Source of the DNA: Bacteroidota bacterium
GTDB lineage: Bacteria > Bacteroidota > Bacteroidia > B-17B0 > Aurantibacillaceae
Assembly: GCA_025362395.1 (NCBI GenBank)
Contig: JANYGK010000022.1
Span: 1 to 62,109, forward strand
DNA length: 62,109 bases
Reading direction: 5' to 3'
Shown here: positions 458 through 27,928 of the stretch, in pieces
Layout of the letters: every line of letters begins with the position of its first letter
Numbering within the stretch: the stretch's first letter is position 1
Program-made: the position numbers and the translations under genes
The notes under the pieces: generated by a model
Told to the model about the DNA's origin: nothing
The model's input: the letters and a program-made list of their open reading frames with translations, nothing else
Databases searched by the model: none

Positions 458-2311
458 ATGTCTGCAAATATGTCAAATAGGCTGTTAAGTCGGGGATTGG
501 CAACATGTATAACATGGTGTTTTATGTGCATTACTCTTACGGCTCAAACAAAAGATGCCACACCGTTAAAAGATACTCTAAAATTTTACAAGAAAATAAA
601 AACGGTGATGTATAAGCACAAGCTTACCAAAATGGCTTACGATGCTATTTTTGTTGAGCCAAAGCCTATTGAATATCCTAAACACCCGGGCTCGAAAGAA
701 GAGAAAATAGTAAATCCGTATTTAAAGTACCAGGATAAAATTATCAGGAACATTAATATTAGAGTATACGATCCTTTCGGGTATTCGGTAACAGACACTG
801 TTCCCCGAAAAATAACAACGCTGGAACATGCCGGAAACAGAGCCCACACGACCACACGTAAATGGATTATTATTAATAAGCTTTTGTTTAAAGAAAATAA
901 GCCTGTTAACCCTTTGGAATTAAGTGAATCGGAAAGGGTGTTACGGGAAGCACGCTATGTAAATGATGTAAACATTTCCATTGTGCCTACGAAAAATAAA
1001 GATAGTGTGGACGTAAATGTGGTAGTAGTTGATAAATGGCCAATCACCATTCCTTTTTTAATAACGGATGTATTTGTAAATGCTAAATTCAGAAATTATA
1101 ATTTATTTGGTGTAGGACAAACTTTTGAACAGTTTGCACAGATAAGGAGGCCCACTGTTCTCGATTTCTATGGCTCTTACGGCATTGATAATATTGATAA
1201 TACTTATATTACGGCATCGCTGTATTACCAAACCAATAAAAATGTAACGCAAACATCCGTATCGTTCGACAGGGGCTTTTACTCTCCTTTGGCTAAGTGG
1301 GCAGGCGGTGTTTATCTTTCAAAAGCATGGAGTTTTTTTGATTATAAGGATTCTATAGATGAACCAAAAAGGGTAAATTTAGATAATATACAGTACGATG
1401 TGTGGGGCGCTAAAAGTTTTAAATTAAGTAAAGACACCAGCATCTTTAATCAGAGTACAAATATTATTACGGGAGGCAGATATTATGCTAACGAATTCCA
1501 GCGCAGGCCAAATGCAGACATAGACCCTAATAAAACTGTTTTAAACTCATACGGAGCAGTAGGTAATGTTGGTTTTGCCGTTCAGCAATATTATAAAGAT
1601 AAATATATTTACAGGTTTGGGGCCAATGAGGACGTACCCGAAGGACTTATCATCCAGTGCATTTACGGTGTTTTAAAAGTGGAATCAAAAAAAATAAGAT
1701 ATTACAGCGGCTTTGAAATAGCACGGGCCAAGCATTTCAAACGCTTCGGATACATATCGGTAACACTTACCTACGGTATTTTCTTTAATAAACATGTCCC
1801 AAACGATGTTACCACAAAATACAACCTTTATTATTTTAGCGATCTTTTAAAAAAAGGACGTTGGTATTTCAGACAATTTTTAAAATACGATTTTGTGCAT
1901 GGCGAAAATAAACTCAATAACGAAAGAACAACCATTAGCCCTGATGACCTTTACGGCTTTAACAGCGGCTCTTTATCAGGAAACACAAAGATGATGCTGA
2001 ACTCCGAAACCGTAGCTTACCTGCCTTATAATGTTATAGGGTTTAGACTTGCACCGGTTATTACGGCAGGTTTTGGTGTAATTGGCAGCCCTGACCGGCC
2101 GCTGGCTCAAAGTAACTTATACCAAGCTTATACGATAGGATTAATGGTGCGTAATGAAAACCTGTTAAGCAGCACCTTCCAGGTTTCATTTGGCATGTAT
2201 CCGTTTTTTCCGGACGGGGGAAATTACATCCTTAAATACAATCCTATTGCAAGTTTTACGTTAAGGGTGAGGGCATTTGCTGTTTCAAAACCGGCGTTTA
2301 TAAGCTATTAG
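458..2311 (+). CDS. BamA/TamA-like (Omp85-type) outer-membrane beta-barrel protein
   Basis: 617 residues. An N-terminal hydrophobic stretch ending near 'LTAQTKD' is a signal peptide. Residues ~95-190 look like one or two POTRA-type modules: 'IIRNINIRVYDPFG', then a helix with 'LSESERVLREARYVNDVNIS', then a strand rich in V and D. The remaining ~420 residues are alternating aromatic/polar strands ending in a C-terminal strand (…RVRAFAVSKPAFISY), as expected of a 16-strand Omp85 barrel. The family inserts or secretes outer-membrane proteins, but this short-POTRA form is one of several uncharacterised Bacteroidota paralogs rather than the essential BamA, which carries five POTRAs. No envelope genes are cotranscribed with it. 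Confidence is in the fold rather than the client. Confidence 0.7.
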   Translation: MSANMSNRLLSRGLATCITWCFMCITLTAQTKDATPLKDTLKFYKKIKTVMYKHKLTKMAYDAIFVEPKPIEYPKHPGSKEEKIVNPYLKYQDKIIRNINIRVYDPFGYSVTDTVPRKITTLEHAGNRAHTTTRKWIIINKLLFKENKPVNPLELSESERVLREARYVNDVNISIVPTKNKDSVDVNVVVVDKWPITIPFLITDVFVNAKFRNYNLFGVGQTFEQFAQIRRPTVLDFYGSYGIDNIDNTYITASLYYQTNKNVTQTSVSFDRGFYSPLAKWAGGVYLSKAWSFFDYKDSIDEPKRVNLDNIQYDVWGAKSFKLSKDTSIFNQSTNIITGGRYYANEFQRRPNADIDPNKTVLNSYGAVGNVGFAVQQYYKDKYIYRFGANEDVPEGLIIQCIYGVLKVESKKIRYYSGFEIARAKHFKRFGYISVTLTYGIFFNKHVPNDVTTKYNLYYFSDLLKKGRWYFRQFLKYDFVHGENKLNNERTTISPDDLYGFNSGSLSGNTKMMLNSETVAYLPYNVIGFRLAPVITAGFGVIGSPDRPLAQSNLYQAYTIGLMVRNENLLSSTFQVSFGMYPFFPDGGNYILKYNPIASFTLRVRAFAVSKPAFISY

Positions 2312-2458
2312 GGGAATTGTAGCTTATATTCTACACTTTTAAATTCCACATATATAGTATACATGTTTTTAAACAACTGTATTTCAATAATTTAAAAATA
2401 ATATAAAAATGGCACAATAATGTACTTAGTGAGTACAGCTCTTAGTATTAAAAAAAAT

Positions 2459-2584
2459 AACATTGTTATAATTTATTGCGTTCATAACGGTATACTTACT
2501 GTTATAATTCGGGGGAGTTCAAAGACGCAATAAAATTTATAATCAGTGTTCCTAAAATGGCGATGATTCATTCATCGCCATTTT
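2459..2584 (+). ncRNA. Candidate structured RNA (long bulged stem, inner hairpin, G-rich loop, terminator)
   Basis: The 302-bp gap between 2311 and 2614 has no coding sequence but folds strongly on paper. Bases 2459-2481 pair with 2525-2550 to give 23 base pairs (one G-U) with three single-base bulges at 2532, 2536 and 2543. Inside, 2484-2492 pairs with 2497-2505 (9 pairs, TACT loop), leaving a G-rich single strand at 2506-2523 that contains CGGGGGAG. A terminator hairpin follows at 2554-2584. This could be a free-standing small RNA or a leader with transcription attenuation for the gene at 2614. A 6S-like long hairpin is one option. I could not see a consensus promoter upstream, and I do not recognise a named RNA family. 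Confidence 0.4.
2554..2584 (+). terminator. Rho-independent terminator, perfect 13-bp stem
   Basis: Arms 2554-2566 and 2572-2584 are perfect reverse complements around a 5-base loop (TTCAT), with GC pairs in the middle, and GTTTT follows. It lies 30 bp before the start of the gene at 2614, so it either ends the structured RNA or the upstream transcript, or acts as an attenuator for 2614-3120. Confidence 0.75.
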
Positions 2585-2613
2585 GTTTTAATAAAGCCGA
2601 CTAAACTAAAATT

Positions 2614-3120
2614 ATGGGAGACACAAAAAACTTAACAAGCACAGAGGCCATTAAAAAATTAAAAGAGATGGCCGAGGATATTAAAACCTGTATGTTCTGT
2701 ACGAGAATTGACAGAATGCCTATTGAAACCAGGCCTATGAGTACAAGGATTGTAGATGAAGAGGGAAACATTTGGTTTATCAGTTCGCAAGACAGTCATA
2801 AAAATTTAGAAATAAAGGATCATGATGAAGTCCAATTGATCTACGCGAAAAATTCTGATTTTCATTTTTTATCGGTATACGGCCATGCTACAATTTTAAA
2901 GGACAAAGCCAAAATTGAAGAACTTTGGACCAAATGGGCTGATGCCTGGTTTGAAGAAGGCAAAAAAGACCCTAACGTTACGCTAATATGTATTAAGCCC
3001 AAGGAAGCTTATTACTGGGATACAAAAGACGGTAAAATGGTTTCTTTAATTAAAATGGCATTTGCTGCTGTTTCAGGAAAAACCCCGGATGACGGCATTG
3101 AAGGAACCATCCGTTTATAA
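2614..3120 (+). CDS. General stress protein 26-like pyridoxamine 5'-phosphate oxidase-family FMN-binding protein
   Basis: 168 residues with a split-barrel flavin-binding fold. Features seen are the early strand with 'CMFCTRIDRMPIETRPMST', then 'GNIWFISSQDSHKNLEI', then 'VQLIYAKNSDFHFLSVYGHA', which is the usual order in the GSP26/YdaG group. The C-terminal part ('PKEAYYWDTKDGKMVSLIKMA') is also typical. These proteins bind FMN or similar cofactors and are linked to stress, but no reaction is established for most of them. This is not the biosynthetic PdxH, which is at 34102-34749. It stands alone, preceded by a strong terminator/attenuator-like hairpin and followed by a bidirectional terminator. 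Confidence 0.88.
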   Translation: MGDTKNLTSTEAIKKLKEMAEDIKTCMFCTRIDRMPIETRPMSTRIVDEEGNIWFISSQDSHKNLEIKDHDEVQLIYAKNSDFHFLSVYGHATILKDKAKIEELWTKWADAWFEEGKKDPNVTLICIKPKEAYYWDTKDGKMVSLIKMAFAAVSGKTPDDGIEGTIRL

Positions 3121-3135
3121 TCATTAATTTATACA

Positions 3136-3171
3136 AAAAAAGTTTCGCAGATTAATCTGCGAAACTTTTTT
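3136..3171. terminator. Bidirectional terminator between the GSP26-like gene and secA
   Basis: A perfect 36-base palindrome: A6, then GTTTCGCAGATT and its complement, then T6. Each strand therefore has a GC-containing stem followed by a U-tract. It sits between convergent genes and should terminate both. The core CGCAGATT is the same as in the inverted repeat at 30072-30162. Confidence 0.9.
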
Positions 3172-3190
3172 ATTAAGCCTGTGTTATAAA

Positions 3191-6100
3191 TTATGCTATG
3201 CCTATTCCATGGCAGTTCTTGTATTTTTTACCGCTTCCGCAAGGACAAGGATCATTTCTTCCAATTTTTTGCTCAACCCGCACAGGCTGTTGTTTTGGTT
3301 TTTGAAGTTCTTGTTGTTGCTGTGCTTCCTCCTCGCTCCTGCTCTCTACTAATTTTTCTTTTGTTCTTTGGGGGACTTGCTCTTGTGTAAAGCGCGCTTG
3401 TTGTAACTGATTAGCATTATTATCTTCAACAGGCAAGCTGCCTTTCATTAAAAAAGAAATAATATCCTTACTCGTTTTAGCGATCATTTCTCTGAATAAA
3501 TTAAATGACTCAAGCTTATATACTACTAAAGGATCTTTTTGTTCGAGGGCCGCATTTTGAACCGATTGTTTTAGGTCATCCATTTCTCTTAAATGCTCTT
3601 TCCACGAATCATCGATCATTGCAAGAATCACTGTTTTTTCGAACACAGCCAACAATTCCCTGCCTTTTGTATCATAAGCCTTTTTAAGGTTTGCCATTAC
3701 CTGTACAGTTCTTACGCCATCCGTAAAAGGTGTTACAATATTTTCGAAATTATTATTAGGGTTTGTATATACATCTTTCACTACAGGAAAAGACATATCG
3801 GCTATTTGCTGTGATTTAACACGGTAATGATGTTCGGCCTGCTCAAATAATTTTTGGATCAGATCATCTTCTTTACCTGCATTAAATTCTTTATCGGTGA
3901 AGGGCGATTCCATTCCGAAATTTTTAATACACTCAAAATTAAATTCTTCAAAATTTCTGTTTGGATAAAATTCGCTGACAATGCTTTCCGCCACTTCATA
4001 AATCATGTTTGCAATATCAATGCTTAACCTATCCCCGTTTAGTGCGTGGCGCCTGCGTTTGTAAACCACATCACGTTGCGCATTCATTACATCATCATAC
4101 TCAATTAAGCGCTTACGCGTACCAAAGTGATTTTCTTCCACTTTTTTCTGCGCACGCTCAATTGATTTTGAGATCATAGAATGTTGAATCACTTCTCCTT
4201 CTTCAAGCCCCATCCTATCCATTAAACTTGCTATACGCTCGCTGCCGAATAAACGCATCAAGTTATCTTCCAGGCTCACAAAAAATTGTGAACTCCCGGG
4301 ATCACCTTGCCTGCCTGCGCGGCCTCGTAACTGCCTGTCTACACGGCGCGACTCATGGCGTTCTGTACCAACAATGGCCAAACCACCGGCATCCTTAACT
4401 CCCGCACCTAATTTAATATCGGTACCACGGCCTGCCATGTTGGTAGCAATGGTAACGGTTCCCGCCTGACCTGCCTCAGCAACAATGTCCGCTTCTTTTT
4501 GGTGCAATTTGGCATTTAATACATTATGCTTAATTCCTCTCAGCTTAAGCATTCGGCTTAGTAATTCCGATATGTCAACGGTTGTTGTACCTATCAATAC
4601 AGGTCTTCCTGCTTCTACTAATTTTACGGTGGCTTCGATTACCGCGTTATATTTTTCGCGTTTTGTTTTGTAAACAAGGTCCTGTTCATCTTTACGTGAA
4701 ATATCCCTGTTGGTAGGAATCACAACAACATCCAACTTATAAATATCCCAAAACTCATTGGCTTCCGTTTCCGCAGTACCTGTCATACCCGCAAGCTTAT
4801 TATACATCCGGAAATAATTTTGCAATGTAATAGTAGCGTAAGTTTGCGTGGCTGCCTCAATCTTTACATTTTCCTTTGCTTCTAACGCTTGATGTAAGCC
4901 ATCGCTGTAGCGACGCCCTTCCATGATACGACCTGTTTGTTCATCTACAATTTTAATTTGTCCGTCAGCAATTACATATTCTTGGTCAATTTCAAATAAT
5001 GAGTACGCTTTTAATAATTGATTCACCGTGTGGATCCGTTCGCTTTTAATACTAAAGTCTCTTAACAAAGCATCCTTTAAAATGATTTTTTCTTTAGGAT
5101 CTTCAAATATTTTTTTCTCCAAGTCGGCAATTTCTTCGCCTACATTAGGAATCACAAAAAAGTGGGCATCATCACTGTTAGTAGTAATCAGGTCAATTCC
5201 TTTCTCTGTTAAATCTACTGTATTGTTTTTTTCATCAATCACAAAAAACAATTCAACATCTATTTTATGCATTTCTTTTTGCTGATCCTGCATATAATAG
5301 TTTTCCGTTTTTTGTTGCAAAGCTTTTACACCCGGCTCGCTTAAAAATTTAATTAAGGCGCCGTTCTTCGGCAAGCCTCTGAAAGCGCGTAACAAAGGAA
5401 TACCTGCTTCTTTCTCTTTTCCTTCTGCAAATAAACGTTTGGCATCCGTTAAACATAATTGCACATACGATTTTTGCGCAGCCAATAATTTTTCAACACG
5501 CGGTTTAAATTCTGTAAACTCATGTTTATCACCGGTTGGCGTAGGCCCGGAAATAATTAACGGTGTACGGGCATCATCAATTAGCACAGAATCCACCTCA
5601 TCCACAATCGCAAAATTATGTTTACGCTGTACTAAATCAGATACTTCACGTGCCATGTTATCACGCAAATAATCAAAACCAAATTCGTTATTGGTACCGT
5701 AAGTAATATCGCATAAGTAAGCTTTGCGGCGCTCATCGGTATTAGGCTCATGCTTATCAATACAATCAACACTTAACCCGTGAAATTGGAACAACGGTGC
5801 GTTCCACTCACTATCCCTTTTTGCCAAATAATTATTTACGGTTACAACATGTACACCGCGGCCTGATAATGCATTTAAAAATACAGGCAATGTAGAAACT
5901 AACGTTTTACCTTCACCGGTTGCCATCTCCGAAATTTTTCCCTGGTGTAATACAGTACCGCCTATCAACTGCACATCATAATGTACCATATTCCAGAGCA
6001 CTTCTGTACCTGCCGCTATCCAACGGTTTTTCCAGGTTGCTTGGTTTCCGGTAATTAAAATATTTTTGTGTGTTTTTGCAATGTCCTTATCAAACTCATT

Positions 6101-23783: not shown

Positions 23784-24143
23784 ATGCTTTGGCATAAATT
23801 AACTGATATTAGTCAGTTATCAGATATTATTGATATTTCAAAACAACAGCCCGGTTTAAATCGGGCTGTTGTTATATTTAAACATAGTACAAGGTGTTCA
23901 ATCAGTTCTATGGCTTTAAATCGGTTTGAATCAAAATGGATTGATGATGAAAATACGCCGGCGTATTATCTTGACTTACTAGCTCACAGGGATATTTCGA
24001 ATGAAATAGCTATCCTTTTCGGCGTTGAGCATGCCTCACCCCAGGTTTTAATACTAAAGGACGGTAAATGTTTTTACAATGTTTCCCATAACGGCATCAT
24101 CGTTTCCGACATACGGGAAGCCATTACCAAACAAATTCAATAA
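23784..24143 (+). CDS. ytxJ: YtxJ-type monothiol bacilliredoxin (bacillithiol system protein)
   Basis: 119 residues with a thioredoxin-like fold. The active-site region is 'FKHSTRCSISSMAL', a single-Cys motif in the position where YtxJ/BrxC has TCGIS-type sequences. The C-terminus 'ASPQVLILKDGKCFYNVSH' is the usual cis-Pro strand. These proteins reduce mixed disulfides with bacillithiol, implying that this bacterium uses bacillithiol. It follows the tiny lipoprotein gene by 6 bp, and its 3' end overlaps the convergent osmC-family gene by 20 bp. Confidence 0.92.
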   Translation: MLWHKLTDISQLSDIIDISKQQPGLNRAVVIFKHSTRCSISSMALNRFESKWIDDENTPAYYLDLLAHRDISNEIAILFGVEHASPQVLILKDGKCFYNVSHNGIIVSDIREAITKQIQ

Positions 24144-26248: not shown

Positions 26249-26863
26249 ATGAAACCTCTACTCTCTATTCTTTTTAAATACATTATTTTATTTGTTATTA
26301 TTGGTATTACCCTTGTATTTATTTTTACTAATAACATCGGGTATACCGAAATTAAATACCTGTTTGCAGGATTAAGTGTTTTATATATTGCGGCTTGCTG
26401 TATTGAAGCGGAGCAAATAGCGGCCGTTTCGAAAGGAACGAAGAAATTTATTTATTTTACCGATAGCTTTATTTCAAAACGGTTTTTGAAAATAATTTTC
26501 TTCTTATGCTCAGGCAGTATTTTACTTTTTCCGCACAGTATTATTAATTACATGTCTTTTATCTGTTTTTTAATCGCTTTTACTGAAATTATATTAACGC
26601 TTTGGAGACATGCAAGAAAACTTTGTTTTGTTGCATTTGAAGGAAATAAAATTATAATGTCAACTAATAAAATAATTTCTATACACGCTGCGGCCATTGA
26701 GAAGATTGAAAAAAGACACGGCATTACCTATTTTGTTTATGAAAATAATGCGGCTATTACTTTACGGACTGATACCATGAAAGAAAAAGATGCTTTTAGT
26801 GAAGCACTAACCAAATGGATTGCCGACAATCATTTAGAAAGCAAAGTTGTTACTGCTTCATAA
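26249..26863 (+). CDS. Membrane protein of unknown function
   Basis: 204 residues. About four hydrophobic spans lie in the first ~120 residues ('YIILFVIIGITLVFIF', 'YLFAGLSVLYIAACC', 'IIFFLCSGSILLF', 'FICFLIAFTEIILTL'). A soluble C-terminal part of ~80 residues follows, with a strand-rich, possibly PH-like core ('LCFVAFEGNKIIMSTNKIIS'). No family recognised. It follows lipA by 12 bp and is closed by a bidirectional terminator. Confidence 0.6.
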   Translation: MKPLLSILFKYIILFVIIGITLVFIFTNNIGYTEIKYLFAGLSVLYIAACCIEAEQIAAVSKGTKKFIYFTDSFISKRFLKIIFFLCSGSILLFPHSIINYMSFICFLIAFTEIILTLWRHARKLCFVAFEGNKIIMSTNKIISIHAAAIEKIEKRHGITYFVYENNAAITLRTDTMKEKDAFSEALTKWIADNHLESKVVTAS

Positions 26864-26891
26864 TTTAATTACGATTTTATTTTTGAACCAT

Positions 26892-26924
26892 AAAAAAGAG
26901 CAACAGAAAGTGTTGCTCTTTTTT
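26892..26924. terminator. Bidirectional terminator between the membrane-protein gene and pdhB
   Basis: A perfect 14-bp stem: AAAAAAGAGCAACA and its complement around loop GAAAG, with A- and T-tracts at the outer ends. The flanking genes are convergent. Confidence 0.92.
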
Positions 26925-26944
26925 ATGTGATTTTAAAGTCGAAC

Positions 26945-27928
26945 TTAAGCTTTTTGATACATTACTTCCTTAACTGCTTTTACAGTTTTGGTAACATTTG
27001 GCAAAGAAGCTTCAATTAAAGTCGGGGCATACGGCAAAGGCACGTCAGCTGCCGTAATACGGCGTATCGGGGCATCTAAATAATCAAATGCATCTTTTTG
27101 CACCCTAAATGCAATTTCAGAAGAAATGCTTGCTAAAGGCCATGCTTCTTCAACAATTACTAAACGGTTTGTTTTTTTAACCGAATTAATTACGGTATCG
27201 TAATCAATAGGGCGAACGGTTCTCAGGTCGATAACCTCAGCGTTGATCCCTTCTTTTTCCAACTCTACAGCAGCAGCTAAAGCTACTTTCATAATTTTAC
27301 CAAAAGAAACAATCGTAACATCTGTTCCTTGTTTTTTAATATCAGCCACACCAATAGGGATAATGTATTCTCCATCAGGAATGTCACATTTATCGCCATA
27401 CATTTGCTCACTTTCCATAAAAATAACCGGGTCGTTATCACGAATAGCTGCCTTTAACAAGCCCTTAGCATCATACCCGTTTGAGGGAACAATAACTTTT
27501 AGGCCGGGGCAATTTGCAAACCAGTTCTCGAATGCCTGCGAGTGCTGTGAGCTTAACATACCTGCACTTGCTGTAGGGCCTCTAAATACGATAGGGCAAT
27601 TATATTGGCCTCCGCTCATACTCAAAAATTTAGCGGCAGCATTTATTATTTGGTCAATAGCGACTAACGAAAAGTTGAACGTCATAAATTCAATAACAGG
27701 GCGTAACCCGTTTACTGCCGCGCCTACGCCAATTCCTGCAAAGCCAAGCTCGGCAATAGGCGTATCAATAATACGTCGTGATCCAAATTCCGCTAACATG
27801 CCTTTACTTACTTTATAAGCGCCGTTATATTCAGCCACCTCTTCACCCATCAGGAAAATGGTTTCATCACGTCGCATTTCTTCGTTCAGGGCTTCACGCA
27901 GGGCTTCTCTAAATTCAATTGTTCTCAT
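26945..27928 (-). CDS. pdhB: Pyruvate dehydrogenase E1 component, beta subunit
   Basis: 327 residues, family length. TPP-binding pyrimidine domain with 'MGEEVAEYNGAYKVSKGM', then 'FMTFNFSLVAIDQIINAAAK', and the C-terminal transketolase domain with 'EAWPLASISSEIAF'. The E1 alpha gene is not in this window, so alpha and beta are split here, as often in Bacteroidota. Together with E2 and E3 it makes acetyl-CoA from pyruvate and needs the lipoyl group made by the nearby lipA product. A branched-chain 2-oxoacid E1 beta is less likely. Confidence 0.93.
   Translation of the reverse strand: MRTIEFREALREALNEEMRRDETIFLMGEEVAEYNGAYKVSKGMLAEFGSRRIIDTPIAELGFAGIGVGAAVNGLRPVIEFMTFNFSLVAIDQIINAAAKFLSMSGGQYNCPIVFRGPTASAGMLSSQHSQAFENWFANCPGLKVIVPSNGYDAKGLLKAAIRDNDPVIFMESEQMYGDKCDIPDGEYIIPIGVADIKKQGTDVTIVSFGKIMKVALAAAVELEKEGINAEVIDLRTVRPIDYDTVINSVKKTNRLVIVEEAWPLASISSEIAFRVQKDAFDYLDAPIRRITAADVPLPYAPTLIEASLPNVTKTVKAVKEVMYQKA

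Follow-up and report, generated by a model that had tools for sequence, protein, structure and literature searches.

The region between an outer-membrane-type gene and secA in a member of the Aurantibacillaceae (Bacteroidota) raises the question of whether a structured interval lying there is an RNA gene in its own right or the leader of the gene that follows it. An earlier note, made from the letters of the sequence, had named both possibilities, either a previously undescribed small RNA or a leader that attenuates the gene of an FMN-binding stress protein. The interval was analysed in its genomic setting (contig JANYGK010000022.1; the whole stretch of 62,109 nt is called the window) and in related genomes. 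The preferred reading, held at a probability of about 0.55, is a stand-alone intergenic small RNA (sRNA) gene of ~170 nt on the + strand, situated between the outer-membrane-type gene and the convergent secA, and acting in trans. That the interval is a real structured sRNA is in itself very probable. With its clear boundaries, it adds a candidate sRNA to a group in which RNA regulation has been little mapped; no description of it was found in the literature, as judged by titles and abstracts.

Predicted fold and terminator

The features of the locus are given in Table 1. The MFE fold joins 2459-2482 to 2524-2550 by 24 base pairs, the 23 counted in the earlier note being the same stem less one U-G pair, with bulges of 2 and 1 nt, both on the 3′ side. 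The inner hairpin of 9 bp was recovered as described. The G-rich segment is likewise present, but its supposed exposure is only partial, as a weak 5-bp mini-hairpin (AAUUC/GAGUU, loop GGGG) is predicted there.

Table 1. Features at the sRNA locus, in positions of the window.
Feature	Position	Strand	Remarks
TGGCAC	2410..2415	+	common to UBA4416, there after the TATCTTTG box; the window lacks here the TTTG of a TAnnTTTG -7 box
Inferred transcript	2416..2589	+	~174 nt; start placed by reference to the -7 box of UBA4416, end set at the T-run of the terminator
5′ block ACAGCTCTTAGTA	2435..2447	+	invariant, 13 nt, outside the main hairpin; possible interaction site
5′ arm of the 24-bp bulged stem	2459..2482	+	predicted MFE fold
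Inner 9-bp hairpin	2484..2505	+	arms invariant; loop variable, of 4 nt in the window and of 7 nt in UBA4416, where the stem has 10 bp
G-rich segment AATTCGGGGGAGTTCAAA	2506..2523	+	invariant, as is the whole 28-nt run 2496-2523 that contains it
3′ arm of the long stem	2524..2550	+	predicted fold
Intrinsic terminator	2553..2590	+	13 Watson-Crick pairs and one U-G, then TTTT
Pyridoxamine 5′-phosphate oxidase-like protein, 168 aa (PF16242)	2614..3120	+	not in the UBA4416 locus

The structure is well beyond chance. The interval 2430-2590 folds at -52.1 kcal/mol against a shuffle mean of -24.6 (z = -7.38), and the hairpin without its terminator (2455-2552) at -30.0 (z = -6.58), with 0 of 200 shuffles as good in either case, so that the z-score which had been proposed as a check proved to be far from zero. 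The opposite strand of the same hairpin gave z = -3.95. When the whole window was scanned on both strands in 100-nt segments (step 50, 25 shuffles each, with 621 weakly folding segments unscored), 2451-2550 on the + strand ranked first of 2482, at z = -8.1 against -6.9 for the next.

As would be looked for in a stand-alone sRNA, the element ends in an intrinsic terminator of its own. The perfect 13-bp stem reported earlier (2554-2566 with 2572-2584) is Watson-Crick throughout and is extended by one U-G pair; it scored z = -7.8 alone, and was the sole terminator-like site that a consensus scan reported in 2300-3200. Its distance from the next gene, 29 bp between base 2584 and the ATG at 2614, was also as given before.

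A second copy in a related species

A DNA search of 60 genomes, the own one included, returned one long match besides the window's own genome (82% over query positions 6-164, E = 2e-35); everything else was short, with a best match of 28 nt (E = 0.0016). The long match, in genome G006, sits on contig DGQK01000024.1 of Bacteroidetes bacterium UBA4416, which belongs to the same genus. The RNA is flanked there, as in the window, by the outer-membrane-type gene on one side and on the other by secA with its 3′ end, and taken alone it folds to the same plan (z = -7.1 for the whole, -7.4 for the core).

The pyridoxamine-oxidase-like gene is missing from that locus. Its homologues in this genome are on other contigs (50% and 45% identity), and the + strand past the RNA holds mechanical open reading frames, the longest of which (4697-5152 of locus L042) is mostly antisense to secA. 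The RNA and its terminator have thus been kept together irrespective of the gene downstream, and in the sole relative found to carry the RNA a leader is not conserved together with that gene. Because the gene is absent there, it falls outside the conserved unit, and the RNA is not primarily its leader. The small-RNA branch of the earlier note is therefore the one supported, and an attenuating leader as the conserved role is not. In the window, the gene between the RNA and secA represents a lineage-specific insertion or loss directly behind a strong terminator.

Conservation between the two copies

From ACAGCTC to the T-run, 121 of 152 aligned positions are identical (0.80), against a maximum of 0.54 in 20 shuffles. 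Fourfold-degenerate sites are close to random between the two species, with 53 of 171 identical in the upstream gene and 131 of 339 in the available part of secA, so that an identity of 80% marks the bases that matter and makes the start, end and functional elements directly testable. Four noncoding neighbour pieces, at 0.45-0.56 identity, each fell inside their shuffled range: 39/87 before the upstream gene, 52/95 from the upstream stop to the RNA, 14/25 over the putative 5′ leader, and 18/35 after the T-run. Since the flanks are near random and the RNA is not, conservation extends from about 2435 through the terminator; further upstream, TGGCAC alone stands out as shared. The interval has been under purifying selection in two diverged species.

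Invariant runs include 2435-2447, 2472-2492 and 2496-2523, the last being the longest and spanning an inner-hairpin arm together with the G-rich segment. Changes affect the loops and the mid-portion of the long stem, in which six A-U pairs in the window stand against two G-C pairs and an internal loop in UBA4416. Indels of 5 and 2 nt occur in loop regions, and two of 1 nt in the variable middle of the stem. In the alignment of the two sequences (A2), 27 hairpin pairs were scored, comprising helices 1-3 and excluding the six mid-stem A-U pairs that UBA4416 does not form; 25 were unchanged, 2 had changed on one side (U-A to U-G) and none on both. The terminator shows one A-U/G-U change with pairing kept, and beside its insertion the alignment suggests one exchange of A-U to U-A. 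The wobble changes, two in the hairpin and one in the terminator, preserve pairing in the + strand RNA only. Being drawn from two sequences, this comparison amounts to consistency with the fold and not to proof by covariation.

Expression signals and coding frames

The statement that no coding frame fits did not stand, as the window contains a 37-codon ATG frame at 2420-2533. It was rejected as conserved coding sequence, since in UBA4416 a stop and frame-shifting indels interrupt it. UBA4416 has in turn a frame of 80 aa antisense to the RNA; stops break it in the window, and it was also discarded.

The -7 box consensus of Bacteroidetes is given as TAnnTTTG, placed at -12 to -5, in two studies (PMC7366714, PMC9723704). 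In UBA4416, TATCTTTG matches this consensus directly before GGCAC; the window has no match in 2300-2640. The consensus occurs 79 times on the two strands of the window, and because ~0.26 chance matches are expected in the 410 bases of UBA4416 examined, the box is suggestive of a promoter there and no more. We infer that the sRNA is transcribed as one unit.

Short independent intergenic transcripts are described for Bacteroidetes in the same two sources. Intergenic sRNAs with their own start and terminator have been validated in Bacteroides (PMC7366714). Of the nearest parallels, GibS of B. thetaiotaomicron combines a start site of its own and an intrinsic terminator with a 5′ seed that is single-stranded and conserved, and Rfp18 of F. 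psychrophilum has a strong predicted structure and is kept across its genus (PMC7366714, PMC9723704). The present candidate resembles them by description, and is known from its predicted fold and its conservation.

Comparison with known RNA families

Rfam gave no gathering-level match in the whole window, and a permissive cmscan of 2300-2640 gave 15 matches at E ≤ 10, none to a 6S family. The best score at the locus was to STnc430 (RF02053), which reached 24.4 bits where the gathering score is 47 (E = 0.084 for a search of 341 bases). That family shares the plan of a hairpin plus terminator; it is enterobacterial, and the match, far under the gathering score, was taken as chance.

6S RNA binds RNA polymerase and templates pRNA, and has a central bubble, open on both strands, between its closing and terminal stems. 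The loop predicted here has 1 nt on its 5′ side and 18 nt on its 3′ side, and so would not form such a bubble. The 6S-like shape suggested earlier is accordingly not upheld, and identity with 6S RNA (RF01685 6S-Flavo, RF01693, RF00013) was rejected on family model and fold. The likeness to 6S-Flavo and to Bacteroidales-1/6S-Bacteroidales (RF01693) is that of hairpin RNAs of broadly similar size that contain GGAGUU, a motif found inside the loop in this RNA, whereas 6S matches elsewhere have GGAGUUU near the 3′ end. Nor does the candidate have the ends seen in sub-threshold 6S matches of three other genomes, AAACUCAAC at the 5′ end and the GGAGUUU type at the 3′ end.

The 6S-Flavo model exceeded its cut-off in none of the 60 genomes, the own one included and 20 of the genus among those searched. 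This silence is weak evidence and says little about the genus, since the model was over cut-off in 0 of 14 control genomes as well. When the 20 genus genomes were searched for a 6S RNA by an end-motif pattern, 43 matches were obtained, compared with 30 from the reversed control; in the own genome each gave one. Matches to 6S-Flavo below the cut-off of 85 bits (49, 36 and 34 bits) were seen in three genomes of other Bacteroidota families (G057, L088 1501-1605; also G048 and G045; loci L088, L089 and L090), with ends of the ACUCAAC...GGAGUUU type, and suggest that true 6S RNAs escape the Rfam model or its cut-off. None was found in the genus of the window.

Distribution

A covariance model (R1) was built from the window and UBA4416 copies, and matches both by construction. 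Among 87 family genomes, with up to 47 candidates scored in each, it found the RNA in 2; among 395 sampled class genomes, with 10 candidates in each, in the own one alone; and among 20 genus genomes, confidently in 2. Matches in six more genus genomes and at one further place in the own genome had E values of 1.7-6.5 and were taken as chance, so that no confident third copy appeared in any genome searched, several of the genus genomes being incomplete. At 30 secA loci, those of the own genome and UBA4416 carry the RNA, and the best of the 28 others reached 15.4 bits (E = 3.4). One genus genome with no confident RNA match (G016) has a SecA C-terminal segment 88% identical to that of the window, compared with 86% for that of UBA4416. 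Since a model from two copies finds no confident third and 28 other secA loci lack the RNA, it is thus patchy or fast-evolving, and a diverged homologue could be missed.

Other routes gave a similar picture. A scan of genome contigs for the 17-nt loop returned 16 matches, UBA4416 and 15 others of at most 22.0 bits (L047, 22.0 bits, E = 0.088; L049, 21.0 bits, E = 0.15), these 15 being without the fold and taken as chance. The upstream gene was located in 8 other genomes; at the 7 usable loci, no like sequence was seen by eye past the first in-frame stop (the eighth, L034, is a - strand match whose stretch is not the 3′ flank of the gene). Plasmids and phages gave one short match each (E = 0.5), and viral contigs no exact match to the 19-nt loop. 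A mobile or repeated element was considered and rejected, there being no second long copy among the 13 matches in the own genome.

Mode of action and alternative explanations

The element is most likely a self-terminated small regulatory RNA, kept in two diverged Bacteroidetes species despite change in the surrounding DNA. Its long hairpin would display the invariant inner hairpin and the invariant G-rich segment, with the invariant 5′ block outside the main hairpin and an intrinsic terminator of its own, and the long stem may serve as scaffold and stabiliser. Such an RNA would act in trans, most likely by pairing of its 5′ block, its G-rich segment or both with mRNAs, and the chances that it works via base-pairing are about even. 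Part of the 5′ block is held in weak local pairings, which differ between the folds predicted for the two species, and the block may be free to pair. A pseudoknot between the block (AGCUCUU) and the G-rich loop (GGGAGUU) was tried and rejected: the duplex, of about -7 kcal/mol, was equalled by 80 and 96 of 1000 shuffled blocks.

An attenuating leader, in which termination at 2585-2590 controls read-through into the gene at 2614, is improbable, and slightly more so than an origin in the 3′ untranslated region of the upstream outer-membrane-type mRNA (stop at 2311), whether as a processed sRNA or as a stabilising 3′ end. Both draw on the missing TAnnTTTG box in 2300-2640. Because of this, and of the 29-bp gap behind the terminator stem, the 2614 gene may depend on read-through in this lineage, and the partial transcript of the window is predicted to be able to pair the 5′ block with the G-rich segment. 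Against the leader, UBA4416 keeps RNA and terminator without the gene, whose homologues lie elsewhere in that genome, and its partial-transcript fold lacks this pairing. For the 3′-untranslated origin, the upstream gene is the same in both species, but the ~100 nt from its stop to the RNA align no better than shuffled sequence and UBA4416 has TATCTTTG right before the RNA.

It is unlikely, if less so, that the RNA binds a protein instead of pairing, as a 6S-like RNA-polymerase ligand, as a decoy for an RNA-binding protein that prefers the G-rich segment, or in the manner of Ms1, an sRNA that reportedly binds core RNA polymerase. The long hairpin with its invariance in inner hairpin and loop would suit such a part, as would the resemblance of the loop GGAGUU to the 3′ motif of 6S matches elsewhere and the fact that the 6S RNA of the genus is unaccounted for. 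The one-sided loop and the failure of any 6S family to match at E ≤ 10 argue the other way; 18 of 20 genus genomes without a confident match would be odd for a housekeeping RNA, and the missing 6S counts for little given the silent controls. A more specific form, doubtful at best, is that the RNA is the founding member of a new family restricted to a few species of one Bacteroidota genus, its G-rich segment and inner hairpin forming a protein-binding platform, for instance a 6S-analogous RNA polymerase or RNA-chaperone ligand, in place of an antisense seed. Binding of the RNA by a protein such as RNA polymerase, if it occurs, would have a bearing on what RNA fills the 6S role in the genus.

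Returning to base-pairing in trans, sites matching the 9-nt loop complement AACTCCCCC number 6 in the own genome and 11 in UBA4416, and each count includes the RNA itself; the numbers for the reversed control are 2 and 3. Of the five remaining sites in the own genome, one is found immediately upstream of a start codon. By eye, no target common to the own genome and UBA4416 was seen among the site contexts. The site before a start codon (G000:C78, L137) ends 2 nt upstream of the gene of a secreted-looking protein, with no counterpart seen in UBA4416. Another (G000:C72, L135), also without a counterpart seen there, lies 198 nt before a gene that we take to encode a sigma-70-type factor.

Elsewhere in the window, the next-strongest folds lie at 23801-23900 and 26851-26950. 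They score z = -6.9 and -6.4 for the - strand and about -5 for the + strand, and their sequences resemble bidirectional terminator hairpins.
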